A DNA stretch of 64,000 nt from Halomonas salipaludis. GTDB taxonomy: Bacteria; Pseudomonadota; Gammaproteobacteria; Pseudomonadales; Halomonadaceae. The DNA is taken from contig NZ_NSKB01000007.1 of assembly GCF_002286975.1 (NCBI RefSeq), positions 124,001-188,000 on the forward strand, in the 5' to 3' direction. A program made the position numbers and the translations under genes. Below the pieces are notes generated by a model, which saw nothing but the letters and a program-made list of their open reading frames with translations, made no database searches and was not told the DNA's origin. Shown piece by piece: positions 34,959 to 52,943 of the stretch. Each line of letters starts with the position of its first letter. Position 1 is the first letter of the stretch.

Positions 34959-37229
34959 TCAGCCGATCGCCTCCACCGACACCGACCGAGCAGCGGCCAG
35001 GGTGCGACGCACCACCTCCGGAGTGAACGGCGGGCGAGTGAAGCGCACCCCGGTGGCATCGTAGAGGGCATTGGCGATGGCCGGCGCGCCGGGCAAGGAG
35101 GTGGACTCCCCCACCCCCAGCGGTGGCGCCTCGGAGTGCTCGACCAGCATGACATCGATCTCGGGTAGCTCGGAGAAACGCAGGATCGGATAGCCGCCCC
35201 ACTCGCGACTCACCGGCAGGCCATCCTCGAAGGCGACGCGCTCCTTGAGCGTCCGGCTCAACGTCTGGATCACATTGCCATGCACCTGGTGGCGCACGCC
35301 GGCAGGATTGATCATCAGGCCGGCGTCCTGCCCCACGATCAAGCGTTCGATGACGATGCGTCCACTGTCGGGATGCACCTTGAGCTCCACCACCCAAGCC
35401 GCCAGGGCGGCGCCGAAGCCGGGAAACTTGCTGTGCACGTACTGGGCATAGGCCACTCCACGTCCGTGCTGCCAGCCATCGACCACGCGAGGCTGCGAAT
35501 GAGCGACCCGCGGCAGCCAACCCGCGCGCACTGCCACGGCCTCGGTGAGCGCCACCGCCCGGGGATCGCTCAGATGACGCAAGCGAAAGGCCACCGGATC
35601 CTCGCCGGCCAATTGGGCCAGTTCGTCGATATGACTCTCATGGGCAAAGGTATTGGGCATCGCCGAAACGCCACGCAACCAAGAGGCACGCACCAGAGTA
35701 GGCACATCGTCGCAGGCGATCTGACGATGGGAGTAGCGGTAAGGCGGGACCGAGGTACGATCGCCCATCTCGAAGGGGATATCGCTGGGTTTGGCGACGC
35801 CCGTCAGCAGCAGGGCCAGGGTGGGGGCATTGTTGGAGGGGTAGCGGGAGACGAAGCGATAGGCGGCGAGCGTGCCATCGGCATGCACCCCGCCCTCTAC
35901 CTCCATCAGTTGGGCTGCCCCCTTGGGCTCCCAGCCATGCTCCTGCTCACGGGACAGCTGTACCCGTACCGGCCGACCCACCGCCCGGGACAGTAGTGCC
36001 GCATCGGCCCCCACATCATCGGCACAGTTGCGCCCGTAACAGCCGGATGCCTCCATCCGGGTGATGGTGATCACGCCCTCATCGAGTCCCATCAGGCGCG
36101 ACAGGTCGGCACGCAGACTGTGGGGATTCTGGGTGCCGGACCACACCCGCAGTCGCTCGTCACGATAGTCGGCCACCGAGCAGGAGGGGCCGATGGAGCC
36201 ATGCAGTTGGAAAGGCCAGACATAGGTGCGACGGATCCGCTGTGCGGCATCGGCCAGTCCGTTCTCCACGTCCCCCTCCTCCAACAGGGGACGGCGTTGC
36301 GCCGGCAGCTCACGCAGGGCCTGCTCTAGATCGTCGAGCCGGGGGAGCCCCTCCGGCTCGCGCCAGGAGACCTGGAGCCGTTTGGCCGCTGCCACGGCCT
36401 GCTCCTCACGCTCAGCGACCACGCCGACGAAGTCGCCGATCACCACCACCTGGATCAACCCGGGCATGTCGGCCACCGAGGCCTCATCCACACCTACCAG
36501 GCTGGTACCGACGAAGCCGCCACGATCATGGCCGGTATAGGGCGGACGGATCACCCGGCCGTGCAGCATGCCGGGCAGGCGCAGGTCATGCACGAACGTC
36601 AGCTGGCCGGCGACCTTGTCGGGAATGTCCACCCGCGGCGCCGCCCGACCCACCAAGCGGTAGTCGCCCACTGGCTTGAACGGTACCTGATCGGCAAGCG
36701 GCAAGGCGTGGCGCGAGCCCGCCAGCAGTTCGCCGTAACCCACGGCGGGTCGATCACCCGCGACCGGTTGAATGGCACCTTCGGCACAATACAAGCTGCT
36801 GCGCGCCACGCCGAAGTGATCACTGGCCAGGTCGAGCAGATGTTCCCGTGCCTGGGCCGCCGCCCGCCTCAGCGGTTCGGCGGTGATCTGGATGGTGGCG
36901 CTGGCAATGGTGGGCCCCTGGTTGGGCACCTCGAAGGGATGCCCCAGCACCATGGTGACCCGTTCCAAGGCCACATCCAGCTCCTCGGCCACGATCTGGG
37001 CCAGGGCGGTGCGAATGCCAGTCCCCAGATCCACGTGCCCATTGAAGGCCATCACCCCGCCATCGGCGAGTACTGCGATAAAGAGCTCGGGCTCCTTGGG
37101 CACAAAATCGGAATGTGTACCCGGTTGACCCGGCGCCGGTTTAGGAGGGATCACGGGGTCCCGGTAGACCACCAGCATATCGGCGCCATGCAGCAGCGCG
37201 TCTCGATCCGGCAGTGATGTAGGCGCCAT
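34959..37229 (-). CDS. NicB-like molybdopterin hydroxylase large subunit without cytochrome domains
   Basis: A 756-residue molybdenum-cofactor-binding subunit of the xanthine dehydrogenase/isoquinoline oxidoreductase type. Visible features are FNGHVDLGTGIRTALAQ near residues 60-76, PNQGPTIASATIQ near 103, RVIRPPYTG near 245, GCYGRNCADDVGADA, and the catalytic GVGES motif with E708. It should hydroxylate nicotinate at C6 together with the [2Fe-2S] NicA. P. putida NicB carries cytochrome c domains; this protein has none and ends after the molybdopterin part. The ATG at 37229 has GGAGAGG upstream. It is divergent from the NicR-like gene, with a candidate operator between. Assignment to nicotinate is by cluster context. 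Confidence 0.82.
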   Translation of the reverse strand: MAPTSLPDRDALLHGADMLVVYRDPVIPPKPAPGQPGTHSDFVPKEPELFIAVLADGGVMAFNGHVDLGTGIRTALAQIVAEELDVALERVTMVLGHPFEVPNQGPTIASATIQITAEPLRRAAAQAREHLLDLASDHFGVARSSLYCAEGAIQPVAGDRPAVGYGELLAGSRHALPLADQVPFKPVGDYRLVGRAAPRVDIPDKVAGQLTFVHDLRLPGMLHGRVIRPPYTGHDRGGFVGTSLVGVDEASVADMPGLIQVVVIGDFVGVVAEREEQAVAAAKRLQVSWREPEGLPRLDDLEQALRELPAQRRPLLEEGDVENGLADAAQRIRRTYVWPFQLHGSIGPSCSVADYRDERLRVWSGTQNPHSLRADLSRLMGLDEGVITITRMEASGCYGRNCADDVGADAALLSRAVGRPVRVQLSREQEHGWEPKGAAQLMEVEGGVHADGTLAAYRFVSRYPSNNAPTLALLLTGVAKPSDIPFEMGDRTSVPPYRYSHRQIACDDVPTLVRASWLRGVSAMPNTFAHESHIDELAQLAGEDPVAFRLRHLSDPRAVALTEAVAVRAGWLPRVAHSQPRVVDGWQHGRGVAYAQYVHSKFPGFGAALAAWVVELKVHPDSGRIVIERLIVGQDAGLMINPAGVRHQVHGNVIQTLSRTLKERVAFEDGLPVSREWGGYPILRFSELPEIDVMLVEHSEAPPLGVGESTSLPGAPAIANALYDATGVRFTRPPFTPEVVRRTLAAARSVSVEAIG

Positions 37230-37330: not shown

Positions 37331-37348
37331 TATAGTGTATGCACCATA
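37331..37348. promoter_or_regulatory. Near-palindromic site upstream of the NicR-like gene
   Basis: TATAGTGTATGCACCATA is an 18-bp dyad in which all four mismatches are transition-type. Its core GTATGCACCATAA recurs at the nicC and nicA promoters. It overlaps a TATAGT that could be a -10 box. A MarR dimer site is expected here. Confidence 0.55.
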
Positions 37349-37490: not shown

Positions 37491-37985
37491 ATGACCCAAG
37501 AGACGTCAGCTCACGCCACCAGCGCCAGCGAGCATCTCTCTCCTGCCGAGCAGGGGTATGACTTCTCGCAACAGGTGGGGCACCTTTTGCGCAAAGCCTA
37601 CCAGCGACATACGGCGATTTTTCAGCGCCACAGCTATGACAAGCAGCTGACTGCCATTCAGTTCGTCACCCTATGCACAGTCATGGAACGCGGCGCGAGT
37701 TCTCTCACCGAGATCGTCAATGCCACCGCAATCGACCCCGCCACCATTCGTGGGGTGATCAAGCGCCTCAAGGCGCGGGAGTGGATCACCCTGACCACCG
37801 ATCCCGGCGACCAACGCAAGGTGATGGTGGTCATCACCGAGGCGGGGGAAACACTGGTGGAGAACATGGTGCCCATCGCCAAGCAGATCAGCGATCAGAC
37901 CATGAGTAACCTCAACCCCGCCGAGCGCATCGCCCTGCTGCACCTACTGGAAAAAATGAACGCCGACCAGCTAAGCGCTGACTAG
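37491..37985 (+). CDS. nicR: MarR-family regulator, NicR-like
   Basis: A 164-residue winged-helix regulator. The HTH lies in SSLTEIVNATAIDPATIRGVIKR and the wing contains TTDPGDQRKVMVVIT, both typical of MarR. It is encoded within the nic cluster and divergent from the NicB-like gene, matching the role of NicR, which represses nic operons in P. putida and is relieved by a pathway intermediate. GAGGAG precedes the ATG. The symbol rests on family plus context; the effector is not shown by the sequence. Confidence 0.82.
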   Translation: MTQETSAHATSASEHLSPAEQGYDFSQQVGHLLRKAYQRHTAIFQRHSYDKQLTAIQFVTLCTVMERGASSLTEIVNATAIDPATIRGVIKRLKAREWITLTTDPGDQRKVMVVITEAGETLVENMVPIAKQISDQTMSNLNPAERIALLHLLEKMNADQLSAD

Positions 37986-37991
37986 GTGGGA

Positions 37992-39491
37992 TCAGCACTC
38001 CCGCTGGCGTATTCGCGTCAAGAGCGGCAGCAACAGCGGCAAGGCTATCGCCATCAATGACATGGCCAGCAGCAGCATGGCAATGGGGCTATTCAGGAAC
38101 ACATCCCATGTGCCTCTTCCCAGGATCAGACTACGGCGAAGATTCTCTTCCAACAGCGGGCCGAGAATCAGCCCGAAGGCGAGTGGCGCGGCGGGCAGCG
38201 ACATCAGATACAACAGATAACCGAGCACCCCGAAGAACAGCATGATATAGACGTCCGCCAGGCTATTGCGGATGGAAAAGGCGCCGATCACACACAGCAG
38301 TGCAATGCCGACCAGCAGCAGATGCGTGGGAATGCGCAAGATCCATGTCATCCAGCGCATCAGCAAGAACCCAAGCAGTAAGGTCAACAGCAACGCAATG
38401 GCAAATCCTGCATAAATGCTGGCCACGAACTCCGGATTCTCGGCGAACAGCATCGGTCCTGGGCGCATGCCATGCATCAGCAGCGAGCCCATCAGCACAG
38501 CGGTAATGGCGTCACCGGGCACGCCCAGCGTCATCATCGGAATCAGCGTGCCGCCGATGCTCGAACTATTCGCGGCTTCCGGCGCCACTACCCCCTCGCC
38601 GGCACCCTTGCCGAAACGCTCGGGGTGACGCGACAAGCGTCTTTCCTGGGCATAGGCGATGGCCACCGCAATCGCCGAACCGGCAGCGGGTATCGCGCCG
38701 ATCAACGCCCCAATCGTGGAGCCTCTAAGCGCAGACTTCCAGTACGAGACGAAACTGCGCAAGGCACCCGATGCGGCATCGAGTGAGGCCGCTACCGGTC
38801 TGGTGGCAGGGCGCGACGCCGGGCCAATATGCTTCATCACCTCCGCCAGGCCAAACAGGCCGATGCACAACGGCACCAACTCTACCCCGCCTTGTAGCAC
38901 GCGACTGCCGAACGTGAAGCGCGGCATGTCCGTCATCAGATCGAACCCAACCATGCCGCAGATCACCCCAAGCGCCCCTACCAACAGGCCACGCACCGTC
39001 GAGCCAGGCGAGGCATAGGCCAATAACACCAAGCCGAACACTGCCACCGCGGTAAACTCGGGGCTACGAAACTGCATGGCCATGGCGGCCATCCATGGCG
39101 CCACCACCATCAGCAGCGCCAACCCCACCAGTCCCCCCAGACTGGAGGCCAGAAGAGCATGACTCAGCGCCAGCTTTGCCTGCCCTGCTTGCGCCATGGG
39201 GTAGCCATCCAGTTGGGTGACAATGGCGCCAGGGGTACCAGGAATATTGATGAGGATGGCCGATATCGAGCCGCCATACACGCTGGCCACGAAGACACTA
39301 AGCAGGAAGAGGATCGCCAACTCGGCCTGCATGCCAAAGCTCAAAGGAAGCAGGATCGCCAGGGCCATGGTCGAGCTGACACCGGGCAGAGCGCCGAGCA
39401 CGATGCCCAGCAGGACCCCACCCAGCGCAAGGGCGATCCCCAGGGGCGAGGCCAGGGTGGCCACGAATGCGGTCAAGGTATCGATGAGCAT
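37992..39491 (-). CDS. tctA: Tripartite tricarboxylate transporter, large membrane subunit TctA
   Basis: A 499-residue inner-membrane protein with about twelve hydrophobic segments. The opening GIALALGGVLLGIVLGALPG and the repeated ALPGVSSTMALAILLPLSFG and GTLIPMMTLGVPGDAITAVL motifs are the two conserved TctA loops. It forms the transport channel with TctB and receives substrate from TctC. It is the last gene of tctCBA, convergent with nicR. Substrates of the family are carboxylates; nicotinate or a related pyridine carboxylate is likely from context. Confidence 0.92.
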   Translation of the reverse strand: MLIDTLTAFVATLASPLGIALALGGVLLGIVLGALPGVSSTMALAILLPLSFGMQAELAILFLLSVFVASVYGGSISAILINIPGTPGAIVTQLDGYPMAQAGQAKLALSHALLASSLGGLVGLALLMVVAPWMAAMAMQFRSPEFTAVAVFGLVLLAYASPGSTVRGLLVGALGVICGMVGFDLMTDMPRFTFGSRVLQGGVELVPLCIGLFGLAEVMKHIGPASRPATRPVAASLDAASGALRSFVSYWKSALRGSTIGALIGAIPAAGSAIAVAIAYAQERRLSRHPERFGKGAGEGVVAPEAANSSSIGGTLIPMMTLGVPGDAITAVLMGSLLMHGMRPGPMLFAENPEFVASIYAGFAIALLLTLLLGFLLMRWMTWILRIPTHLLLVGIALLCVIGAFSIRNSLADVYIMLFFGVLGYLLYLMSLPAAPLAFGLILGPLLEENLRRSLILGRGTWDVFLNSPIAMLLLAMSLMAIALPLLLPLLTRIRQREC

Positions 39492-39504
39492 CGGCTCTCC
39501 TCGC

Positions 39505-40008
39505 TTACAACGGCACGTTGAGCAGCATCACGAACACAAGGTGCAGCAGCGCCCCGATCAGCAGGGCGAAGCACGCCGCATGACCCAACGCACGGCGCAA
39601 GCCCCCACCACGGCGATAGCCAAGCCATGCGAGCCAAGGCGCAGCGAATAGCACGCTGGCGGCAAGGAATCCCAGCCAGTCTGTCAGCACCGGTAATAGG
39701 GCGATCGATGAGATCAGCAGCAGGGCATGCAGGTGATCGCCCGGCATCGCCATGCCGGGAGGGCCCAGCCAGCCACTGCGTGCCCAGTTCACCACCCCTT
39801 TCAGCAGGATGACCGCCCCTCCCAGGCCCACCAGCCCGATGACGATCAACGGCAAGAACGCCGGGCCAGGATCGGGACCGCGCCCCAGAGTAGCCGTCAG
39901 GGCAGTGTCGCGGAGCACGGAGTAGCCCACCACGCCTGCCAGTACACTGAACAGTAAGCCGCAGGCGATATCGCGCCAGGCTTCATGACCGAGATGCCGA
40001 GTCGCCAT
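39505..40008 (-). CDS. tctB: Tripartite tricarboxylate transporter, small membrane subunit TctB
   Basis: A 167-residue membrane protein with four hydrophobic segments, the expected size and topology of TctB. The sequence GRGPDPGPAFLPLIVIGLVG is typical of the family. It lies 13 bp upstream of tctA with GAGGA before its ATG, and downstream of the binding protein gene. Confidence 0.88.
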   Translation of the reverse strand: MATRHLGHEAWRDIACGLLFSVLAGVVGYSVLRDTALTATLGRGPDPGPAFLPLIVIGLVGLGGAVILLKGVVNWARSGWLGPPGMAMPGDHLHALLLISSIALLPVLTDWLGFLAASVLFAAPWLAWLGYRRGGGLRRALGHAACFALLIGALLHLVFVMLLNVPL

Positions 40009-40042
40009 GGATCATTCCTCGCGTGTGAGTGCGGAGCGGTAC

Positions 40043-41014
40043 TCAATCGCTGAGCAGGCCCGACTCTTCGAGGATCGCATGCACTTCACGCGAGCGCTGG
40101 TTGAGATAGGACTCGGTAGCGGCACGCGCCATCGGCGTGATCACCAGGCCTAGCTCGCTGGCCTCCTGCAGGAATCCGTCATCGTTGAGCAGTTCGTAAA
40201 AGAGCTGCTCCAATCGGTCGCGCCGTGCCTCGGGCACGCCTTGCGGCAGGTAGAGCATGAAGAAATCTTCCGCGATGAAGTCAAACCCTTGCTCCTTGAA
40301 TGTCGGCACGTCGGGAGCAAAAGGGTGGCGCTCCTCGGCGGCAACACCGAGCAACCTGACCGCTCCCGCGGCGTGCTGGTCAGCGAGCAGGGGAATCGGC
40401 AAGGTGACAGACATCACCTCACCGGACAGCAGTGCCGATACGGTGGGAGCGTAGCCTTGGTAAGGAATCTTGGTGAGGTCGACATCGAAGCGATTCTCCA
40501 ACATGCTGGCCGCGATGTAGGAGAAACCACCTGGAGAGTCATTGCCGTTGACGATGCCACCGGGCATGTCCCGCAGCAGCTCCAGATACTCCTCTATCGA
40601 CTCGATACCGGTATCGTCACCCACCGCCAGTGATGCCGGCTCGGGACCGATGAACACCAGCGGCTCCAGCTCATCCAGCGGGGTGGCGTTGGGATTCATG
40701 TAACTCTGGGCAATGGCGTGGGTCCCCATCATGCCCACGGTGTATCCGTCTGGCGCGGCATCGGCCACGTGTCTCACACCGGTAGACCCCGCGGCACCGG
40801 TCACATTGGTGACGACCAGCGGCTGAGACATCGCCTCTGGAGCATACTCCGCCATCAGGCGGGCAGCGAGATCATAGGCGCCCCCCGCCGGCCAGGGCAC
40901 GACCAGGGAAACGGGACGGGTGGGAAACTCCTCCGCTACCACTGGGGTGAATACCGCAGCGAGCTGGAAGGTAGCCAAAGCGGCCGCAGCCATCAGGGTA
41001 TGACGGGTTTTCAT
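40043..41014 (-). CDS. tctC: Tripartite tricarboxylate transporter binding protein TctC
   Basis: A 323-residue periplasmic binding protein of the Bug/TctC family. The signal peptide (ALATFQLAAVFTPVVA) is followed by FPTRPVSLVVPWPAGGAYDL, the family's N-terminal motif. Later VTNVTGAAGSTGVRHVADAA and FDFIAEDFFMLYLP also fit. It binds a carboxylate in the periplasm. The ATG at 41014 with GGTGAA is preferred over an upstream TTG. A 259-bp gap separates it from the nicF stop, so tctCBA may have its own promoter. Confidence 0.9.
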   Translation of the reverse strand: MKTRHTLMAAAALATFQLAAVFTPVVAEEFPTRPVSLVVPWPAGGAYDLAARLMAEYAPEAMSQPLVVTNVTGAAGSTGVRHVADAAPDGYTVGMMGTHAIAQSYMNPNATPLDELEPLVFIGPEPASLAVGDDTGIESIEEYLELLRDMPGGIVNGNDSPGGFSYIAASMLENRFDVDLTKIPYQGYAPTVSALLSGEVMSVTLPIPLLADQHAAGAVRLLGVAAEERHPFAPDVPTFKEQGFDFIAEDFFMLYLPQGVPEARRDRLEQLFYELLNDDGFLQEASELGLVITPMARAATESYLNQRSREVHAILEESGLLSD

Positions 41015-41273
41015 TGTTTTCACCAATTGTCAGAAGTCTAAGATTAGGCTTGTTATTGCTCTTCCCGATCACTGGCGTGACGATCGTCAAGTGGCAGCAC
41101 GACATGCCTCGACCAAGCCTCCGGCAGCGCAACATGCGATGCCGTGACAAGGCCACCATCCATGCTGTCTTGGCGAATCTCCTTAGCCCAGCAGGGCTGC
41201 TATCGCTTGTTGTCTCACTTGATATGTCATGGCATCCAGCCACTCTCTACTTGCCTGCCATCCGTCGGCAGGG

Positions 41274-41915
41274 TCATGTCGTCACCAAGGTGGCAAAGAA
41301 CTCGTCCTTGCCGATCACATCACCATACTTGCTGTCGATATCGAACAGGTTGGCCTCGTGGGGCGCAGGGTGGCGGTCGCCCACGCATTCACGCATCACC
41401 ATCACGCGGAAGCCGTGCTGCAGACCATCCACCGCCGTGGCACGGATGCAGCCACTCGTCGAGCACCCCATCAGCACCACGGTATCCACCCCCAAGGCGC
41501 GCAGCGTCGGTGCCAGCGAGGTGCCGAAGAACGCGCTGGGATACTGCTTGGTGATCACCAGCTCCTCCGGTAGCGGCGCCACCTCTGGACAGAATTCGGC
41601 ATGCGGGTTGCCTTCCACCATCGCCTTCATCACCGGCGCCTTCTTCAGCCACACGCCGCCGTCGAGGAAGCGTTCGGGCTGGTAGCGAATGTTGGTGTGT
41701 ATGACCGGTAGCCCGGCGCGACGCGCCTGTGCCAGTGCCTCGGCGGCGTGGGGCATAGCCGCGACCACGCCGGGGGCATAGAGTGGAGCCCCGGGTATGG
41801 TGTAGCCCTGCATGAAGTCGACCACTATCAGGGCGCTCTGCTCACCGAAGCCGATCCGGCTGTCCCATACGCCCTTGTAGTTATCCTGCGCGTCATCGTT
41901 GTGAGGGTTGGACAT
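41274..41915 (-). CDS. nicF: Maleamate amidohydrolase, NicF
   Basis: A 213-residue isochorismatase-fold hydrolase that converts maleamate to maleate and ammonia. The catalytic residues are D33 in LIVVDFMQGY, K123 in TKQYPSAF and C156 in GCSTSGC. Its length and its position next to the maleate isomerase, deformylase and monooxygenase genes match nicF. The ATG at 41915 is 10 bp downstream of the nicE stop, with GAGGA upstream; a longer reading would extend through nicE and is rejected. Cytoplasmic, last gene of the nicCDEF operon. Confidence 0.9.
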   Translation of the reverse strand: MSNPHNDDAQDNYKGVWDSRIGFGEQSALIVVDFMQGYTIPGAPLYAPGVVAAMPHAAEALAQARRAGLPVIHTNIRYQPERFLDGGVWLKKAPVMKAMVEGNPHAEFCPEVAPLPEELVITKQYPSAFFGTSLAPTLRALGVDTVVLMGCSTSGCIRATAVDGLQHGFRVMVMRECVGDRHPAPHEANLFDIDSKYGDVIGKDEFFATLVTT

Positions 41916-41925
41916 CAGGGCGTCC

Positions 41926-42678
41926 TCAGTAAGCGCCGGAGAGCAGGGCGCCAGCACCAGGCACCACGGGCTCGAGATCCAGGGCCTTGAGCATGGCATA
42001 GGTCGTGGCGATGGCCGCAGTGACCACCGGCTTGCCGGTGAGCGCTTCGACCTTAGGGACGGCAGCCAGCGAGGGCATCTGCACGCAAGCAGAGAGTACG
42101 ATGGCGTCCACATCGCCATAGTCGAGGCCGGCAACGATCTCCGGCAGGTTGGCGGGATCGTGGCGCGCCACATCGAGGTTGTTGGGGATCTCAAGGGCTC
42201 GATAGTCGACCACGTCGATCCCTTCCTGGCGGACATAGTCCACCACCATCTCGGTGAGCGGCTTCATGTAGGGCGCTACCACCACCACACGCTTGGCCTT
42301 GAGTACCTCGAGGGCATCCACCAGGGCACCGGCACTGGTGACAACCGGGGTGTCGCAACCGTTTTCCTCGGTGCGGCCACGCAGTCGCTGCTGGGATTCG
42401 CGGTGGTAACCCGGCCCCATGGACATGATCGCCACCAGGCAGGCGTAACCCATCACATCCACTGCCGCGTCGGAGAGCTCCAGGGCACAGCGGTCGGACT
42501 CGGCGTCCATGGCGGCCAGTTCGTCCTTGCTCACCGTCTTCATACGCATGCGGCTGGAGTGGAAGGTAAAGCGTTCGGGACGAATCAACTGTCGTGCCCC
42601 CAGCATGGCCGGGATTTCCGTCTCCATGGTGATATTCGAACTGGGTACGATCTGGCCGATGCGGTATGTCTTGGTCAT
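41926..42678 (-). CDS. nicE: Maleate isomerase, NicE
   Basis: A 250-residue Asp/Glu-racemase-fold enzyme that turns maleate into fumarate, which enters the TCA cycle. The two catalytic cysteines are C80 in GYACLVAIM and C198 in LSACVQMPS, with PSSNITMETE near the N-terminus and IPNNLDVARH in the middle, both matching the family. It lies between nicD and nicF in the expected pathway order. The assignment to maleate isomerase and not arylmalonate decarboxylase rests on the two cysteines and context. Confidence 0.92.
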   Translation of the reverse strand: MTKTYRIGQIVPSSNITMETEIPAMLGARQLIRPERFTFHSSRMRMKTVSKDELAAMDAESDRCALELSDAAVDVMGYACLVAIMSMGPGYHRESQQRLRGRTEENGCDTPVVTSAGALVDALEVLKAKRVVVVAPYMKPLTEMVVDYVRQEGIDVVDYRALEIPNNLDVARHDPANLPEIVAGLDYGDVDAIVLSACVQMPSLAAVPKVEALTGKPVVTAAIATTYAMLKALDLEPVVPGAGALLSGAY

Positions 42679-42693: not shown

Positions 42694-44687
<1,994 letters not shown>

Positions 44688-44819
44688 TCATTGCTCTTGT
44701 TGGCATCTCCCCCAGTGCGCCAGGCAGACCAGCCGTTGCAGGTCTACGCCTCGCCGACTCGCCTAGGGCTCAGCCATACAGGGCCGATCAGGCGAGGAAA
44801 ACCGTAGGAGTAAAAACAA

Positions 44820-44846
44820 CGTATACACCAATAAAAAAAGGGTCAA
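44820..44846 (-). promoter_or_regulatory. Candidate nicC promoter with overlapping operator motif
   Basis: On the minus strand TTGACC (44846-44841) and TATACG (44825-44820) are separated by 15 bp, slightly short for a sigma-70 promoter. The motif GTATACACCAATA (44821-44833 on the plus strand) overlaps the -10 and matches the sites at 37337 and 45027, so repressor binding would block polymerase. Confidence 0.45.
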
Positions 44847-45039: not shown

Positions 45040-45130
45040 GCAGCAAGAAAAGTGCACTACCAGCGAGAACCGCACCATTTCTTGCACCAGAGCGGTGCGA
45101 CCGCAGCAGCCAACAATAACGACGACACCC

Positions 45131-45625
45131 ATGACCCAAACCCTGACACTGAACGTCAACGGACAGGCGCAAGCGCTATCAGTGGCACCCGACACGCCGC
45201 TGCTGAATGTGTTGCGCAACGATCTAGCGCTCAATGGCCCCAAGTACGGTTGTGGGCTGGGTGAGTGCGGAGCCTGCAGCGTGCTGGTCAACGGCATGGC
45301 TGCCCGAGCTTGCGTGCTACCGATCTCAGCGGTAGTCGGCCACGAAATTGTTACCCTCGAGGGCCTGGCCCACGAGGGCCGGCTCGACCCAGTGCAGCAG
45401 GCCTTTATCGAAGCGCAGGCCGCCCAGTGCGGCTATTGCCTCAACGGCATGATCATTAGCCTGCGGGCCTTGCTCAATCGAACCCCGCGGCCCACATCGA
45501 CACAGCTCAGAGCGGCGCTGGAGTATCACCTCTGCCGCTGTGGCACCCACCTGGAGATCCTGGAGGCAGCAGAGCGCGCCGTAGACATCAATGCCGCAGA
45601 GTCACTGGAGGCGCCCCGTGACTGA
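45131..45625 (+). CDS. nicA: Nicotinate dehydrogenase [2Fe-2S] subunit, NicA
   Basis: A 164-residue iron-sulfur subunit of the nicotinate hydroxylase. The plant-type ferredoxin cluster is held by C41, C46, C49 and C61 (YGCGLGECGAC then ARAC), and the second cluster by QCGYC and CRCG in the C-terminal helical domain. It passes electrons from the molybdenum site to cytochrome c. The start at 45131 fits the family N-terminus (TLTLNVNGQ), though its SD is weak. It overlaps the next gene by 8 bp (GTGACTGA), and so is translated with the cytochrome subunit. Confidence 0.93.
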   Translation: MTQTLTLNVNGQAQALSVAPDTPLLNVLRNDLALNGPKYGCGLGECGACSVLVNGMAARACVLPISAVVGHEIVTLEGLAHEGRLDPVQQAFIEAQAAQCGYCLNGMIISLRALLNRTPRPTSTQLRAALEYHLCRCGTHLEILEAAERAVDINAAESLEAPRD

Positions 45626-48602
45626 CCGGCCGCTCTCCTCGCCGAGGGCCGACCGTGCAACGCTGCCCGCTGCGCTGGCATCGCCCAAGCGCTTCGGCGT
45701 AGCAATACGGCCTCCCCGCTATGCCTGGAACGGCGAGCACTTCGTCAGCGATCGACTGGTAGACGTGGACAGGGCCAGCGTGGCCGACCAACCGGGGCGG
45801 ATCGAGGTTGTCGTCGAGGGCAACTTCGTGGGCGTGGTCGCCGACAGCCTGGATGCGGCCCAGAACGCCGCACGACAACTGGCCATCGAGTGGCAGGCCA
45901 TCTCCGATACGGGCCATGGCAATGACGTCCGAGCTCACATAGCGACCAAAACGAACAGCAGCGATCCGCTCGCAGAGCATGGCACCCCCAGCCCGGCCCA
46001 CCGCCACGACTATGGCTGGCCAAGCCGTCTACGCTGGGGCGATACCCCCGGCTGGGTGGTGGCCGACTGCTCCGAGCAAAGCCTCATGGTGTGGGTCGAT
46101 AGCATGTCGCCAGAGGCCTTGGCCCACGACTTGGCGACACTTACCGGCCTGGCGCGCGAGCATATCGACCTGTATGGGCCCTCAGCACTGCGAGATGCCT
46201 GCTTGGGACGCCACTGCGGGGACGATGCCGCAGTGGATGCTGCCATCATGTCTCGCCGGCTCGGTTACCCCGTGGCGGTATGGCTGGATGCAACCTACGC
46301 ACGCGATGTGCAGGCCCTGGGCGAGGCCCAGCGCATCTCCTTGCGTGCCGACCTGGCAATGGACGGCGAGATCAGCGACTTCCGCTACCACCAGGCGCAT
46401 ATTTCGGGAGACATTGCTGCCGTGGGCCTATGGCTATGCGGTTGCCCTCCCGTCCAGCCAGCCATGGCCAGCCCAGCTGCGACTTACTCCCCCTATGCCT
46501 TTCGTCGCCACCGGTTGGCGACACGACGCGATGCGGGCACTCACAGCCACAACGACGGGTTCGCCGAGATTCAACAAGCGTTTGCCAGAGAATCCTTCCT
46601 GGACGAGGTAGCCCACGACAGTGGCCAGGATCCACTGGCACTGCGCCAGCGTCATCTCGACGATCCGCGTGGTATCGAGCTGATCGAGTCCGTCTCCCGG
46701 CGCGCCGAGTGGGGTAAAACGTCATCCCCTGCCGATGCCGAGTCACCCGACCTGCTGCGCGGCCGCGGCTTCGCCTATGCGCAACGTCCCGACCGCCATC
46801 AACGTATTGCCGAAGGCGTCCGCTCGGCCTGGATCGCCGATGTGGAGGTCAACCGCGTGACCGGCGATGTCACCCTGACCCGCCTGGTGGTGGGCCAGGA
46901 TGCCGGGCCTGACATCGACACCTCGCGCTTGCAGCAAACCTTGCAAGCGCGTGTGCTGAGTAGCGCGCGTCCGCTGCTTGGGCGCGCCCCCACCTTCGAC
47001 GAATGGGGCGATGGCAGCGAGCCTCCCCCGGACCGGGATAGCGCAACCAGTAGCGCTCTCGTGGAGCCGACCGACACCCTAACCCGGAGAGCAACGAACG
47101 ACATGCCGGCGACGCCGGGCGCTACGGCACTACCTGAGGCAGACCTTGCCCCCGCTGTGGCAGTCATCGCCAATGCCCTGTTCGATGCCACCGGAGTGCG
47201 TTTTCGCCAGCCGCCGTTCACTGCCGGCCGGGTACGCGAGGCCCTGCAGGACCCGACCTCCCCATTGCAGAAAAACGTCTCCGAACCACCAGCCCTTCGG
47301 CGCGGTAAACGCTGGTTCAAGGCAGCGGCACTGACCGCGGTAGCCGGCACAGCGATGATGGCCTGGCCCTGGAAGGGCGCGATCGCCCCGATCCCGCGCC
47401 CTGCCGCCAACCTCTACTCGGCAGAGACCATCGAGCGTGGGCGGCTGGTAGCCGCGGCTGGCGACTGCGCGGCCTGCCACACCGCCGAGGGAGGACAAGA
47501 AAATGCCGGAGGGCATGCCTTCGATACGCCGTTCGGCACCCTCTACAGCACCAATCTAACGCCCGATGAGGAAACCGGGATTGGCCAGTGGTCCTATGCG
47601 GCCTTCGACCGCGCCATGCGTCAAGGCATCAGCCGTGACGGCCGCCACCTCTATCCTGCGTTCCCCTACACGGCCTTTGCCAAGATCAGCGATGCCGACA
47701 TGCAGGCGCTTTATGCCTATCTGATGGCACAGCCCGCAGTGCGCGCCGAGACACCCGCCAACTCGCTGAGCTTCCCCTTCAATATCCGACCATTAATGGC
47801 AGGCTGGAATGCGTTATACCACGATGCCACGCCCTTCGAGCCCGCCCCCGAGCAGAGTGATTTATACAACCGTGGCGCTTATCTCGCCGAGGGCCTGGGC
47901 CACTGCAGCGCCTGCCATACCCCACGCAACGCCATGGGCGCAGAGCGTCGAGGAGAACAGCGCCTGGCCGGCGCCATGGTGGACGGCTGGGAGGCCCCTC
48001 CCCTCAACCAGCAAACTCACTCACCGATTGCCTGGAGCGAGGCCTCTCTCTACGACTATCTGCGCCATGGAGCCTCGTCGCTGCATGGCGTGGCCTCCGG
48101 CCCCATGGCACCAGTAGTAGCCGGCCTGGGCGAGCTGCCGGAGTACGACGTACGCGCCCTGGCGCACTACGTGGCGGCCCAGATGGGCGTACCGGCAGGA
48201 GATAGCGAGAGTGTTCAAGCGGATGCCGCGGAGCGCATTGCCTCGACCCAGAGCGGCCCTATGGGAATGGAGGAAGGTGAGCGCCTATTCGAGGGCGCTT
48301 GCGCTGCTTGTCATATGGAGAGCGGCGCTCCCACCTTTTCCAGCGCCAAAACTTCTCTGGCCCTGAACACCAACCTGTTCAGCGCACATCCCGACAACGT
48401 CATTCAATCGATTCTAGGCGGCGTACATGCCGACCATGTTCCAGGCAGCGGCGCGATGCCTGGTTTCTCCGACAGCCTTAGCGACTCTCAGGTTGCCACT
48501 CTGACGGCTTACCTGCGGGCACGCTTCGCGCCCGACCAAGCACCCTGGAAAGACATCGAATCCCGCACATCGGAGATTCGTTCCTATAACGATAACCCTT
48601 AA
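45618..48602 (+). CDS. NicB-like protein: shortened molybdopterin-like domain fused to three cytochrome c domains
   Basis: A 994-residue protein. Residues about 30-555 resemble the NicB molybdopterin domain but start at the hammerhead-like part (FGVAIRPPRYAWN); the first 220 or so residues of the complete paralogue at 34959 are absent. The catalytic GxGE motif before IANALFDATGVRF is missing. A probable membrane helix (AAALTAVAGTAMMAW) near 566-583 separates this from three cytochrome c domains with CAACH near 617, CSACH near 763 and CAACH near 895. It likely delivers electrons from nicotinate oxidation to the respiratory chain. The molybdopterin-like part may be structural. The GTG at 45618 is chosen for the 8-bp overlap with nicA. 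Confidence 0.82.
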   Translation: MTDRPLSSPRADRATLPAALASPKRFGVAIRPPRYAWNGEHFVSDRLVDVDRASVADQPGRIEVVVEGNFVGVVADSLDAAQNAARQLAIEWQAISDTGHGNDVRAHIATKTNSSDPLAEHGTPSPAHRHDYGWPSRLRWGDTPGWVVADCSEQSLMVWVDSMSPEALAHDLATLTGLAREHIDLYGPSALRDACLGRHCGDDAAVDAAIMSRRLGYPVAVWLDATYARDVQALGEAQRISLRADLAMDGEISDFRYHQAHISGDIAAVGLWLCGCPPVQPAMASPAATYSPYAFRRHRLATRRDAGTHSHNDGFAEIQQAFARESFLDEVAHDSGQDPLALRQRHLDDPRGIELIESVSRRAEWGKTSSPADAESPDLLRGRGFAYAQRPDRHQRIAEGVRSAWIADVEVNRVTGDVTLTRLVVGQDAGPDIDTSRLQQTLQARVLSSARPLLGRAPTFDEWGDGSEPPPDRDSATSSALVEPTDTLTRRATNDMPATPGATALPEADLAPAVAVIANALFDATGVRFRQPPFTAGRVREALQDPTSPLQKNVSEPPALRRGKRWFKAAALTAVAGTAMMAWPWKGAIAPIPRPAANLYSAETIERGRLVAAAGDCAACHTAEGGQENAGGHAFDTPFGTLYSTNLTPDEETGIGQWSYAAFDRAMRQGISRDGRHLYPAFPYTAFAKISDADMQALYAYLMAQPAVRAETPANSLSFPFNIRPLMAGWNALYHDATPFEPAPEQSDLYNRGAYLAEGLGHCSACHTPRNAMGAERRGEQRLAGAMVDGWEAPPLNQQTHSPIAWSEASLYDYLRHGASSLHGVASGPMAPVVAGLGELPEYDVRALAHYVAAQMGVPAGDSESVQADAAERIASTQSGPMGMEEGERLFEGACAACHMESGAPTFSSAKTSLALNTNLFSAHPDNVIQSILGGVHADHVPGSGAMPGFSDSLSDSQVATLTAYLRARFAPDQAPWKDIESRTSEIRSYNDNP

Positions 48603-48632: not shown

Positions 48633-48821
48633 ATGCAAAGAAGCAAATGGATATGGCTAGTTTGGACAGTGGTACTACTGTGCTACCTAGTCCCTTACAC
48701 CCTACTGACCAACGTACAAACATGGCTGGGCAGTTTTCTGTTCTGGACGATTGCCGGGTTGGTGATCATTGCCCTAAACCTCTATATCACCAAAGATTTC
48801 GAGGAGCACGGCAATGACTGA
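48633..48821 (+). CDS. Small two-TM partner of a sodium:solute symporter
   Basis: A 62-residue membrane protein with two hydrophobic helices (WLVWTVVLLCYLVPYTLL and FLFWTIAGLVIIALNLYI) ending in a charged tail (DFEEHGND). Small proteins of this type (DUF3311/YhdT-like) are regularly encoded before SSS-family symporters. The ATG at 48633 has GAGG upstream. The stop overlaps the symporter start by 8 bp (ATGACTGA). It probably assists the symporter's assembly or activity. Confidence 0.82.
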   Translation: MQRSKWIWLVWTVVLLCYLVPYTLLTNVQTWLGSFLFWTIAGLVIIALNLYITKDFEEHGND

Positions 48822-50325
48822 GTCAATGATCTGGTGGTCTATCGCCATCTATTTCTTTATTGCCATTGGGATTGCCATCTTATCTCGCCAAGGCAAGTCG
48901 GAGAGCATGTCGGGTTATTTCTTGGGTAACCGACAAATGAATGGGTTCGTCTCAGCGTTGAGCTACAGCGCCACGACCTATAGCGCCTTTATGATGGTAG
49001 GGCTGGCCGGATTGACCTACGCCGGCGGCGTGGGCGCCCTCGGCTTTGAAATCATCTATTTCGCGGGCGTCTCGCTGGTGGCGATCTTCGGGCCGAAATT
49101 CTGGGCCGTAGGCAAGAAGTTCAACTTCGTGACCCCTAGCGAGATGCTAGGCCATCGCTATAACAGCAAGCACGTCGCCATGGCCGTGTCGATTGCCAGC
49201 TGTATCTTCCTGATTCCCTACGCAGCAGTACAGCTTGCCGGCGTTGGCTATCTACTTCAAGGCACCACCAACGGCGCAATTCCTTTTACCACCGGGGTAA
49301 TGCTGGCAACGGTGATAGCGATTATCTTCTCCTATGTAGCAGGCATTCGCTCAGTCATGTGGACCGACTCCCTGCAAGCCATCATGATGATCATCGCCTC
49401 GACGCTGGTCGCTTTCCTGGTCATCCAGGGACTAGGTGGGTTTACGGCGCTGTTCGACACCCTGGCCAGTGAGCATCCCCAATCGCTAACGGTTCCAGGC
49501 ACTGGTCTATTCAGCTTCATCACCTTCCTCGGCCTGACCATCCCGTGGTTCTTCTTTAGCCTCTCCAACCCCCAGGTCAGCCAGCGGCTATTCATGCCCG
49601 CCTCGCTGCGCTCCATGCGCCAGATGCTGATCGGCTTCCTGGTCTTCGGCTTTATCTACACCCTGGTGTCGGTGCTGTGGGGCTTTTCTGCCCTGGCGGC
49701 CTTTCCTAGCCTGGAGCGCGCGGATCTCGCCACCCCGACGCTGCTGGCATCCGACTTCGTGCCACCGCTCCTGGGCGTTATCGTGATGATCGGCATCATG
49801 GCCGCCGCCGTCTCGACCATCGACTCGATCATGCTGACTCTCTCCTCGATGCTGGCACGTGACGTCTATGCCAATCTCAAGCCCGATGCCAGCGAAAAGC
49901 GTCAGCTGCTGGCCGGCAAGATCGTGATCCCCGTCATCGCCATCATGGCGCTTGGCTTTGCCGAACTCGAGCTCGACCTGATCGCCGTGCTCTCGGTGGC
50001 AGCTTCATCGGGCCTGGTGGCCATGGTGCCAGCGATCATCGGTGCCTTCTACTGGAAGCGTGGCACTGCCGCTGGCGCCCTGGTAAGCGTGCTCGGCACC
50101 GGCGCCTTCGTGCTTTTCGTCTATGCCATTGGCAACTCCTTCCTGGGTCTGCCGGCAGGCGTGTGGGGAATTATCGTGTCCACGACGCTATTCGTAGGTG
50201 TGAGTTTAGCGACCAAACCGCATAAGGCTTCTACCGATCTCTTCCTAAAGGCTATCACCGAGGAGTTAGGCCGCAAGAAGCACACACCATCCGCCAGCCC
50301 TGACCCACACAACGCCACGGCTTAA
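48814..50325 (+). CDS. Sodium:solute symporter (SSS family)
   Basis: A 503-residue inner-membrane carrier with 12-13 hydrophobic segments. SYSATTYSAFMMVGLAGLTY near the N-terminus and VSTIDSIMLTLSSMLARDVY are family signatures that include the sodium site. Sequence type is that of PanF/MctP-like SSS carriers of monocarboxylates. Since it sits between the nicAB electron transfer genes and nicX, nicotinate uptake is a likely role. It would replace the MFS permease NicT of P. putida. Substrate not proven. Confidence 0.88.
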   Translation: MTESMIWWSIAIYFFIAIGIAILSRQGKSESMSGYFLGNRQMNGFVSALSYSATTYSAFMMVGLAGLTYAGGVGALGFEIIYFAGVSLVAIFGPKFWAVGKKFNFVTPSEMLGHRYNSKHVAMAVSIASCIFLIPYAAVQLAGVGYLLQGTTNGAIPFTTGVMLATVIAIIFSYVAGIRSVMWTDSLQAIMMIIASTLVAFLVIQGLGGFTALFDTLASEHPQSLTVPGTGLFSFITFLGLTIPWFFFSLSNPQVSQRLFMPASLRSMRQMLIGFLVFGFIYTLVSVLWGFSALAAFPSLERADLATPTLLASDFVPPLLGVIVMIGIMAAAVSTIDSIMLTLSSMLARDVYANLKPDASEKRQLLAGKIVIPVIAIMALGFAELELDLIAVLSVAASSGLVAMVPAIIGAFYWKRGTAAGALVSVLGTGAFVLFVYAIGNSFLGLPAGVWGIIVSTTLFVGVSLATKPHKASTDLFLKAITEELGRKKHTPSASPDPHNATA

Positions 50326-50401: not shown

Positions 50402-50434
50402 AACGGTTCCATACAATGGATATTGGGAGTTCTC

Positions 50435-51466
50435 ATGGATCACGCAAGTTTTACCGAAATATGTCTGCACCAGCTAAAAATGTCTGGCGTGCATGAAGGC
50501 GAAAAGCTCATTATCCTTACACAGGGCAATGAACGCCTTGAGTATGCCGATGCGTTTATGGCGGCGGGCCAGCGCTTAGGTGCTAATATGTACCATATGC
50601 GCTTACCGTCCCCACTACCGACGGGCGGTTGGAATGTGGGTACGACAGGTCTAGCCAGCATGCCAGACGCGGTAGAAGCGCTTAAGAATTGCGACATGCT
50701 GATCGACTGTATTTTCCTGCTTTTTTCACCGGAACAAATGGCTATACAGGCGGCGGGGACGCGCATACTGACAGCCGTAGAGCCTCCTGAGTTATTGGCG
50801 CGCATGTTGCCCTCGAAAGAGTTGAGAGAGAAGGTCGAAATCGCTGCCGATATGCTGGACAAGGCCAAGGTAATGCGTATTACCTCGCCCCATGGCACCG
50901 ATGTTACCTACCAATTGAATACCTATCCCACCATCGCCGAATATGCCTGTACCGATGAACCAGGCCGCTGGGATCACTGGCCGTCAGGGTTTGTCTTTAC
51001 CGGCGGCGACGACGATGGTGTTGATGGCCAGATCGTCGTCGCTCCGGGCGATATCCTCTTGCCCCAGAATATCTACGTTCGCGAACCGATCACCTATACC
51101 ATAGAGAAGGGCTGGATCACCGATATTCGAGGAGGCTTCGAGGCCGATATCGTCAAATCCTATATGCAAGACTTCAATGACGAGCGCGGCTATGGCATGA
51201 GCCACGTCGGCTGGGGAATGAACCGGGACGCCAAGTGGCACAGAATGGTGCCCGGAGAGTTCCCCGGTGGCATGGGGATGGAGCCCAGGAGCTTCTACGG
51301 AAACGTGATGTTCTCGACGGGGCCGAATAGCGAGCTCGGGGGGAGCAATGACACCGCCTGCCACTTGGACATTCCCATGCGAGGCTGCTCACTCTTTCTC
51401 GATGACACGCCCATCGTTATCGACGGCGACATCGTTGAAAAGGAGATCATCATCGACCAACCATGA
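50435..51466 (+). CDS. nicX: 2,5-dihydroxypyridine 5,6-dioxygenase, NicX
   Basis: A 343-residue Fe(II) dioxygenase that opens the ring of 2,5-dihydroxypyridine to N-formylmaleamate. The sequence matches the NicX type: ILTQGNERLEYADAFMAAG, RITSPHGTDVTY and the metal-site region GYGMSHVGWGMNRDAKWH followed by SNDTACHLDIPMRGCS, where His and Asp/Glu ligands are expected. Length is close to the P. putida enzyme. The ATG at 50435 with GGGAG six bases upstream is preferred over the TTG at 50423. It completes the pathway from nicotinate to fumarate. It is preceded by a structured leader, so expression may be set separately from the symporter. Confidence 0.93.
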   Translation: MDHASFTEICLHQLKMSGVHEGEKLIILTQGNERLEYADAFMAAGQRLGANMYHMRLPSPLPTGGWNVGTTGLASMPDAVEALKNCDMLIDCIFLLFSPEQMAIQAAGTRILTAVEPPELLARMLPSKELREKVEIAADMLDKAKVMRITSPHGTDVTYQLNTYPTIAEYACTDEPGRWDHWPSGFVFTGGDDDGVDGQIVVAPGDILLPQNIYVREPITYTIEKGWITDIRGGFEADIVKSYMQDFNDERGYGMSHVGWGMNRDAKWHRMVPGEFPGGMGMEPRSFYGNVMFSTGPNSELGGSNDTACHLDIPMRGCSLFLDDTPIVIDGDIVEKEIIIDQP

Positions 51467-51508: not shown

Positions 51509-51562
51509 TGATTGCCGCAAAATAGCCCCACATCCTTGGTGCTACTGCTTTCGACAAGCCGC

Positions 51563-52798
51563 TTACTCTCTGCCGGCCAGCTCGATCAGCGCATCGCACA
51601 GCACCTGAGCGCCCAGGGCGCACTGCTCCGGGCTCGAGTACTCCGCCTCGTTGTGGCTGATACCGTCGCGACAGGGGATGAAGACCATCGCCGTGGGCGC
51701 GACCCGCGACACATAGACGGCGTCGTGGCCGGCACCGCTCAGCATGCGCCGGTAGGCAATGCCACGAGCCTTGGCGGCGCCCTCCACGGCGTCGACGCAG
51801 CCGGCATCGAAGCTCACCACCGGCGAGGCCCAGATGCGCTCGCTTTTCGCCTCCACGCCGAAGGCCTCGCCGGCGGCGGCCAGTTCATCCTCGAAGCGCG
51901 CTTCCAGGGCATCCAGCTCACCCTCGTCGATATGACGCAGGTCGACGCTGAGCCGCACCTCTCCGGGCACCACGTTACGCGAGGCGGCGTCGATTTCCAG
52001 GGTGCCACAGGTGACCTTGGTGTCGCCGCTGGGATCCGCCAGGGCGTGGGCCTGGAGGCGGTCGATGCAGCGCGCCGCGGCGGCCAAGGCGTCGCGCCGG
52101 TAGCGCATCGGCGTGGGGCCGGCATGCGAGGACTGGCCGCGCAGCGTGACGTCGAACCAGCGCATGCCCTGCACGCCGGTCACCACGCCGATCGCCTCGT
52201 GGTTCTCCTCCAACACCGGCCCCTGCTCGATATGCAGCTCGAGGAAGCCCGCCAGGCGCGGCTCGCCCACCGCCATCTCGCCGTTGAAGCCGGTCGCGGC
52301 GAGCGCCTCGCCGAGGCTCACGCCGTCGCGGTCGCGGCGCGCCAGGGTCGAGCCGACGCTGAACACGCCGGCATAGGTGCCGGAGGCGACCATGGCCGGG
52401 GCGAAGCGGCTGCCCTCCTCGTTGGTCCACACCACCAGTTCCAGCGGCCGCTGGGTGACCACGCCGTGATCGTCGAGGGTACGCAGCGCCTCGAGGCCGG
52501 CCAGTACCCCCAGCACGCCGTCGAAGCGTCCACCCTTGGGCTGGGTATCCAGGTGGCTGCCAACGCCGATCGGATCGAGATCGTCACGCTTGCCGGCGCG
52601 GCGCAGGAACATGTTGCCGACGCGATCGACGCGCAGCGTAAGACCCAGCGCCTGGCCCCATTCGATCAGCAAGTGCCGGCCGGCGGCGTCCTCGTCGGTA
52701 AGCGCCAGCCGGTGGCTGCCGCCGTTGGGGCTGGGGCCGATCTCGGCCATCGCCATCAGCGAATCCCACAGTCGTTGCCCATCAATGGAGTGCGTCAT
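51563..52798 (-). CDS. M20 amidohydrolase: N-carbamoyl amino acid/allantoate amidohydrolase-like
   Basis: A 411-residue Zn-dependent amidohydrolase of the Hyu/AllC family. GVGSHLDTQPKGGRFDGVLG supplies the metal His and Asp, TNEEGSRFAP the bridging Glu, and ELHIEQGPVLE and GQSSHAGPTPM are further family motifs, with SGAGHDAVYVS near the end. These enzymes cleave N-carbamoyl groups. Next to agmatine deiminase, whose product is N-carbamoylputrescine, it could hydrolyse that compound or an N-carbamoyl beta-amino acid; this is inference. It is on the opposite strand to the aminotransferase and shares a 145-bp promoter region with it. Confidence 0.87.
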   Translation of the reverse strand: MTHSIDGQRLWDSLMAMAEIGPSPNGGSHRLALTDEDAAGRHLLIEWGQALGLTLRVDRVGNMFLRRAGKRDDLDPIGVGSHLDTQPKGGRFDGVLGVLAGLEALRTLDDHGVVTQRPLELVVWTNEEGSRFAPAMVASGTYAGVFSVGSTLARRDRDGVSLGEALAATGFNGEMAVGEPRLAGFLELHIEQGPVLEENHEAIGVVTGVQGMRWFDVTLRGQSSHAGPTPMRYRRDALAAAARCIDRLQAHALADPSGDTKVTCGTLEIDAASRNVVPGEVRLSVDLRHIDEGELDALEARFEDELAAAGEAFGVEAKSERIWASPVVSFDAGCVDAVEGAAKARGIAYRRMLSGAGHDAVYVSRVAPTAMVFIPCRDGISHNEAEYSSPEQCALGAQVLCDALIELAGRE

Positions 52799-52943
52799 GG
52801 GTGCCTCGTTGCGTTGTGGTTATAGGGTGTTGCCAGCTTAGAAAGCGGCCCTGCCTGCCACCATACCCCAATCGGGATATGTTCCCGCCAAGTCGCCCCT
52901 GGCTAGTCTGGTGCTACCGATAACAACAGACGAGGCCACGGCC

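Follow-up and report, generated by a model that had tools for sequence, protein, structure and literature searches.

Part of a 64,000-nucleotide stretch of DNA from the salt-loving bacterium Halomonas salipaludis (NCBI RefSeq assembly GCF_002286975.1, contig NZ_NSKB01000007.1, positions 124,001 to 188,000 of the forward strand), hereafter the window, is occupied by a cluster of nicotinate-pathway (nic) genes that includes two paralogous proteins related to NicB, a subunit of nicotinate dehydrogenase, with which the breakdown of nicotinate (vitamin B3) begins. One of them, here called pB, is encoded on the forward strand at 45618-48602 and is coupled to nicA (45095-45625, forward strand), the gene of the 2Fe-2S subunit (Pfam Fer2_2 and Fer2), which adjoins pB in relatives as well. 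The other, here called MoL, is a stand-alone molybdopterin (Mo) subunit of 756 amino acid residues (34959-37229, reverse strand; Pfam MoCoBD_2 and MoCoBD_1), which we propose as the catalytic one. MoL lies on the opposite strand to nicA and about 8 kb away from it, beyond tripartite tricarboxylate transporter (Tct) genes and several nic genes.

The pB gene starts with a GTG at 45618, which is preceded by GGAGG and overlaps the nicA stop codon (45623-45625); the open reading frames (ORFs) of two relatives (L009 and L013) begin at the position aligned to this GTG. The protein thus has 994 residues, while the mechanically delimited ORF (45591-48602) has 1003, and residue numbers below follow one or the other as indicated. 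Homologues of nicA align from residue 19 on, and that gene more likely starts with the ATG of residue 13 (about 45131). Within pB a degenerate Mo domain (45696-47246, residues 36-552 of the 1003-residue ORF), hereafter the pseudo-Mo domain, is followed by a weakly hydrophobic segment upstream of haem 1 (47313-47378, Kyte-Doolittle scan), possibly a membrane anchor, and by a cytochrome c part with three CxxCH haem sites (47466-48314) at residues 617, 763 and 895 of the 994-residue protein.

An earlier note on this DNA had described the coordinates and starts of both proteins, the E708 of MoL, three CxxCH motifs in the nicA-coupled protein and a Mo-like part lacking about 220 residues at its N-terminus, all of which agrees with our results. 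A tblastn search of the window with MoL aligned pB only from MoL residue 185 onwards (expectation value E = 6e-63). The same note had named an intact N-terminal Mo region in another frame as an observation that would speak against its interpretation. Searching the window by tblastn with the N-terminal pieces of MoL and of a fused NicB detected no second N-terminal Mo copy near nicA, the best other match having E = 0.24, and a hidden N-terminal Mo region in another frame is thereby ruled out.

The distribution of haem sites separates the two proteins from each other. In an alignment of 73 one-chain (fused) NicB, 48 MoL and 48 pB sequences (at least 1050, 700 and 900 residues long, respectively), in which many pB rows stem from one genus and are therefore not independent, exactly three CxxCH motifs occur in 48/48 pB and 72/73 NicB, and none in any of the 48 MoL. 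The cytochrome part of pB retains 111 of 126 columns that are invariant in NicB, and its best match among solved structures is the cytochrome subunit of PDB 8gy3 (E = 2e-112).

MoL, in turn, retains the NicB active-site motifs, including the glutamate of GVGES (E708). With the Mo part of fused NicB it shares 52-62% identity, and it is the top match for 69 of 70 fused NicB proteins, compared with an overall identity of about 40% for pB. A search of the whole genome with MoL retrieved pB and distant paralogues, the full-length ones at 32-34% identity and a short stretch at 37%. The paralogue ORFs examined contain no CxxCH, and identity to MoL among the paralogues does not exceed 37%; the search thus revealed no second fused NicB in this genome.

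The Mo-site motifs differ between the two proteins as well. The loops GHVDLGTG and NQGxTIAS, the motifs QxHxSIGPSC, GCYGRN (SGCYGRN) and RASWLRGVS, and the glutamate of GxGES show little or no variation in NicB and MoL. Both loops are deleted in pB, and QxHxSIGPSC, GCYGRN and RASWLRGVS are replaced there. We take these motifs to correspond to the cofactor and substrate contacts of xanthine oxidase, GHVDLGTG and NQGxTIAS presumably being cofactor loops by analogy with that enzyme; for GVGE, and for it alone, the equation derives from alignment. The catalytic glutamate is present in 48/48 MoL and 73/73 NicB. It is not conserved in pB, where the same column holds G in 20 sequences, D in 12, E in only 6, A in 5 and other residues in 5; a GxGE string is found elsewhere, within a divergent linker, in 3 of the 48. 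The expectation that these motifs would be lost only in the cytochrome-fused protein of the pair is thus borne out across the 73 NicB, 48 MoL and 48 pB.

Part of the pseudo-Mo domain is nevertheless retained. Of 182 columns in the shared stretch in which all NicB and MoL have one and the same residue, pB keeps 54 at a frequency of at least 95% and a further 29 with the same commonest residue below 95%; 10 have a different fixed residue, 14 are mostly gap and 75 are otherwise changed. Newly fixed residues include W155, Y236 and L243 (1003-residue numbering). The missing N-terminal region, upstream of pB residue 36, accounts for another 52 columns of this kind.

An AlphaFold2 model of the pseudo-Mo domain (39 sequences; mean predicted local distance difference test score 71.4, predicted template modelling score 0.70) has a partial Mo-hydroxylase fold, with low confidence at 459-510, immediately ahead of where the GxGE motif has been lost. 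It superimposes on 1sij with Z 22.7 (root-mean-square deviation, rmsd, 5.9; 400 residues aligned) and on 8gy3 chain C with Z 22.1 (rmsd 5.8, 440 aligned). The corresponding model of MoL gives Z 34.7 (rmsd 15.2, 637 aligned) against 8gy3 chain C and Z 33.1 (rmsd 3.6, 520 aligned) against 5g5g chain C. The core fold of the pseudo-Mo domain is predicted to be kept, and a kept fold is by itself no proof of function.

The two proteins occur together. Among 275 genomes of the family, 45 possess pB (about 50% identity or more) and the same 45 possess MoL (64% or more), with no genome having just one of them; this is the co-occurrence in Halomonadaceae for which the earlier note had suggested a survey. 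G149 and G169 also gave matches, at 43%, but these are part of another enzyme, encoded by three genes. A sample of 390 genomes of the order, searched twice, contained ten with pB, the same ten with MoL (five of them new), three with a fused NicB and one (G439) with a clean division into Mo and cytochrome proteins and no pseudo-Mo domain. In 369 genomes of the class a pB-type match was present only in the window genome and one genome of its family. The searches scored at most the three best stretches per genome in the family and the two best in the order, and weaker extra copies may have escaped them. Broken copies were counted as present, namely pB in three ORFs (G017) or two (G222), MoL in two (G110) and a copy divided over contigs (G253), and were mostly outside the motif, tree and substitution-rate sets owing to the length cut-offs. 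The recurrence of the same structure in 45 genomes of the family rules out an assembly artefact.

A scan across 84,980 species, each represented by a single genome, confirmed 110 relatives of pB; the best 80 were used. Loci L009-L015 have pB and MoL together, with MoL cut by the end of the locus in L010 and pB in three ORFs in L015. A single ORF of at least 1050 residues with Mo and cytochrome parts was found in 70 of the 73 loci L016-L088; L075, L085 and L088 yielded no NicB row under the length and score cut-offs. In all fourteen loci L016-L029 (Pseudomonas, Serratia and related) the fused nicB stands beside nicA, nicC, nicD, nicF and nicR. The order MoL, NicR, nic genes, NicA, pB is preserved in most loci with the divided form. 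MoL is divergently adjacent to nicA-pB in four f43 genomes and located farther out than the first stretch examined in L157 and L158, and some loci have no copy of one or more of nicD, nicE, nicF or the Tct genes nearby. One of the scanned contigs, of 17.8 kb and assigned to Marinobacter azerbaijanicus (L009, NZ_JASSVS010000024.1), carries MoL and pB nearly identical to those of Billgrantia lactosivorans (L013/L120), with a synonymous distance (dS) of 0.04-0.09, and represents either a very recent transfer or assembly contamination.

In a tree of the Mo region (58 hand-picked rows: 24 NicB, 15 MoL, 15 pB and 4 others) NicB, MoL and pB each form one clade, supported at 99/99 for MoL and 100/100 for pB. 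The branching of MoL and pB is largely mirrored, and the stem of pB is very long (1.81 per column). In the cytochrome tree pB forms one clade among those of NicB; its placement beside the Pseudomonas/Serratia group is weakly supported (80/23). In 118 pairwise comparisons drawn from 45 genomes whose copies are intact, the median ratio of nonsynonymous to synonymous substitution rates (dN/dS) is 0.205 for the pseudo-Mo domain (range 0.131-0.608), 0.077 for the pB cytochromes and 0.075 for MoL. For a domain of no use, this ratio would be expected to approach 1. The pseudo-Mo domain is thus under purifying selection and is not a pseudogene, a possibility that dN/dS and column conservation together rule out.

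Our interpretation of these observations is a nicotinate dehydrogenase of three subunits, with the two functions of NicB divided between the paralogues MoL and pB; we assign it a probability of about 0.75. The earlier note had arrived at the same division, with catalysis in the separate subunit and a degenerate domain retained on the cytochrome protein, and it gains support from the restriction of motif loss to pB, from co-occurrence in 45/45 genomes, conserved gene order and matching clades, and from purifying selection. MoL would bind the molybdenum cofactor and hydroxylate nicotinate to 6-hydroxynicotinate, a role that its retained motifs strongly imply. NicA would transfer the electrons over its 2Fe-2S clusters, and the three c-type haems of pB would relay them in the direction of the respiratory chain. 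The Mo-like domain of pB is probably catalytically dead, the loss of motifs being visible in the sequence and the loss of activity following from it by inference. It was probably kept as a folded scaffold that plausibly docks the NicA/MoL module onto the cytochrome part. The most likely origin is the duplication of a one-chain nicB followed by complementary losses, in which MoL would have given up the cytochromes, and pB the first 220 or so residues together with the active site.

Several observations weigh against this interpretation. The pB of the window has a glutamate in the catalytic column (E516 of the 1003-residue ORF, within LPEAD), and its spacing to the IANAL segment equals that in MoL. 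The claim of the earlier note that the GxGE motif is gone from pB consequently stands for the GxG, which is absent around E516, and not for the glutamate itself. E516 weakens a claim of strict glutamate loss for this protein; the absence of the N-terminal loops is independent of it. The phylogeny is permissive as to which branch was duplicated, as approximately unbiased (AU) tests reject none of the groupings MoL+pB, NicB+pB and NicB+MoL (p = 0.338, 0.216 and 0.335). With a rate of evolution 2-2.6 times that of MoL, NicA and the cytochromes, the pseudo-Mo domain may be only loosely needed. Moreover, G439 (locus L167) has a plain 500-residue cytochrome beside a NicB-like Mo subunit without any pseudo-Mo domain, so that a dock of this sort is not generally required. 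The rate covariation is equally ambiguous. Among distances of nine proteins or protein parts in 39 genomes, the partial correlations of the pseudo-Mo domain are highest with MoL (0.52) and NicA (0.50), and in an eight-gene set these two are its top covariates in 500/500 thinned draws; with five genes and 43 genomes, however, NicC (0.43) precedes MoL (0.39), and NicA is third (0.30). As NicC tops the ranking in the smaller gene set, the covariation is not robust and is suggestive only, and it backs docking by the pseudo-Mo domain only in part. Topology poses the last difficulty: c-type haems mature in the periplasm, and no export signal was recognized by eye in MoL or NicA.

A hydrophobic stretch between the Mo-like and cytochrome parts is present in fused NicB as well, and the topology and electron path of the NicB class as a whole look unexplained. 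Within 90 residues upstream of haem 1, a 19-residue segment with a mean Kyte-Doolittle value of at least 1.0 occurs in 45/48 pB and 73/73 NicB, and no such segment upstream of haem 1 attains 1.3 in the pB of the window. If the segment is a membrane anchor, the pseudo-Mo domain may be a tether on one side of the membrane, opposite the haems; electrons would then have to cross it, in fused NicB too. Pairs of arginines in the first 40 residues were counted in 1/48 MoL, 29/48 pB and 44/73 NicB, counts that we do not interpret because they refer to mechanically assigned starts.

More specific roles of the pseudo-Mo domain are conceivable. At somewhat less than even odds, the dead domain would have become, after duplication of nicB, an indispensable partner keeping the live Mo subunit and NicA in place on the tethered cytochrome, possibly instead of the second protomer of the parent dimer. 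Mo hydroxylases of this family are often dimers, and a related but less probable explanation, which we rate as rather unlikely, makes such a substitution its function: the parent NicB would have been a dimer held together by its Mo domains, and MoL would now pair with a dead partner into an asymmetric heterodimer, one half of which is structural. Retention of the core fold despite the replaced active-site motifs, the residues fixed specifically in pB, and the rate covariation of the pseudo-Mo domain with MoL would all be expected from such pairing, but the nearest solved relative, 8gy3, is listed with one large-subunit chain and one cytochrome chain. It is less probable again that the domain is a decaying leftover that is slowly being lost, with the cytochrome part alone being of importance. 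The pseudo-Mo domain is indeed the fastest-evolving part (mean distance 0.56, as against 0.22 for the cytochromes), and pB is shorter (929-972 residues) in the four f43 genomes, where whole-genome matches begin only at residue 313-315, yet blastp aligns these proteins from residue 26-36. Decay is difficult to reconcile with the dN/dS values given above, with the 54 kept and 10 newly fixed columns among 182, with a fair predicted fold and with the presence of the domain in all 48 aligned pB rows, which belong to several families.

A separate enzyme is the least credible alternative, and we disfavour it strongly: MoL would act on another substrate, and pB and NicA would hydroxylate nicotinate on their own. 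The distance of about 8 kb between MoL and nicA, with Tct and nic genes in between, and the glutamate in the catalytic column of the window pB could be cited in its favour. However, pB has neither the N-terminal loops nor the other motifs, and the glutamate recurs in just 6 of 48 pB. A Pfam scan found no 2Fe-2S gene among the neighbours of MoL that were scanned, MoL accompanies pB in 45/45 genomes and is by identity the orthologue of NicB, and in the four f43 genomes the two transcription units are divergently adjacent.

The divided enzyme does not make up a class of its own; it is a conserved variant within a class already known. It shares with the NicAB of the Pseudomonas putida class the 2Fe-2S protein NicA, the same Mo and tri-haem cytochrome families and the pathway neighbours. 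NicB of P. putida is one chain with Mo domain and cytochromes, and the comparison was made with the fused NicB of loci such as L016-L029 rather than with the P. putida protein itself. NicA coupled to pB, a complete Mo domain with E708 (on MoL) and the remaining pathway genes are all present in the window; a complete Mo domain and a tri-haem cytochrome on one chain are not, as these parts are distributed over two proteins, of which the one with the cytochromes bears a shortened, degenerate second Mo domain. The membrane-bound aldehyde dehydrogenase of Gluconobacter oxydans (8gy3), which presumably includes a 2Fe-2S subunit, is the nearest solved relative of both MoL (chain C) and the pB cytochrome part (chain A), and likewise has separate Mo and cytochrome c subunits. 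Its cytochrome chain, 444 residues long, is matched by pB from residue 580 onwards only and so has no room for a Mo-like domain, in contrast to pB with its Mo-like domain of about 520 residues (36-552). L167 and L175-L177 also have genes for a NicA-like protein, a Mo subunit and a cytochrome, which there lie side by side, the cytochrome gene being without a pseudo-Mo domain, unlike pB. At L167 (7556-11558) NicA is accompanied by a Mo protein of 745 residues and the separate cytochrome, possibly exported, and the Mo subunit begins with a twin-arginine-like stretch, RRNFLK, which the MoL of the window does not have. A more distant relative is the nicotinate dehydrogenase 3hrd, which we take to be that of Eubacterium barkeri. 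Its Mo domain is also divided over two chains, but there a single domain is cut into pieces of 330 and 425 residues, whereas here two paralogous copies exist, one complete and one degenerate. Judged by title and the opening of the abstract, none of the open-licence papers listed in literature searches deals with such a division.

The main interest of this arrangement is that a degenerate catalytic domain has been kept for a long evolutionary time. It amounts to a natural experiment: after the apparent duplication of a fused redox enzyme, either copy gave up what the other one does. The way the Mo, 2Fe-2S and haem parts of NicB fit together becomes a testable question, as the residues that the degenerate domain has kept may point to surfaces on which assembly or electron transfer depends, as distinct from those required for catalysis. 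For annotation it follows that a lone pB-type protein should not be taken for a working NicB.

The other nic genes of the window were assigned from solved structures (nicC, nicE, nicX and nicR) or from Pfam (the nicD- and nicF-like genes). On the reverse strand lie nicC for 6-hydroxynicotinate 3-monooxygenase (43509-44675; PDB 5eow, E = 8e-176), an alpha/beta hydrolase gene (42694-43512) that we presume from its position to be nicD, nicE for maleate isomerase (41926-42678; PDB 4fq7, E = 2e-112) and, by Pfam Isochorismatase and position, a nicF-like amidohydrolase of isochorismatase fold (41274-42236), whose true start is probably later since most homologues align only from about residue 80-117. 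On the forward strand, nicX for 2,5-dihydroxypyridine 5,6-dioxygenase (50423-51466) was identified from PDB 7cn3 (E = 2e-93) and has no Pfam match, and a nicR-like MarR regulator (37491-37985), divergent from MoL, matches PDB 6pco/6pcp (E = 3e-49), the former presumably BpsR. A simple palindrome scan for a regulator site shared within the cluster gave nothing. Palindromes resembling GTGTATACAC, a pattern picked after inspection of the regions, are located at 37335-37344 (one mismatch) between MoL and nicR and at 44819-44828 (two mismatches) between nicC and nicA. Sites with at most one mismatch occur in 6/38 genomes in the former region, against 0.2 in mononucleotide shuffles, and in 9/38 in the latter, against 0.85; 19/38 MoL/NicR regions have none better than three mismatches. 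As a lead only, these palindromes may be regarded as a candidate NicR operator common to both transcripts.

An ORF of 437 residues (51512-52825) has no Pfam match and is overlapped by one of 411 residues on the opposite strand. The TctA, TctB and TctC genes (Pfam) at 37992-41026, which lie inside the nic cluster of some relatives (such as L125, L139 and L140) and not of others, possibly encode an importer of nicotinate or of a pathway acid. A sodium:solute symporter (PF00474) at 48814-50325 follows pB in most fetched relatives with 71-92% identity, is better conserved than pB itself, and is a candidate nicotinate transporter.

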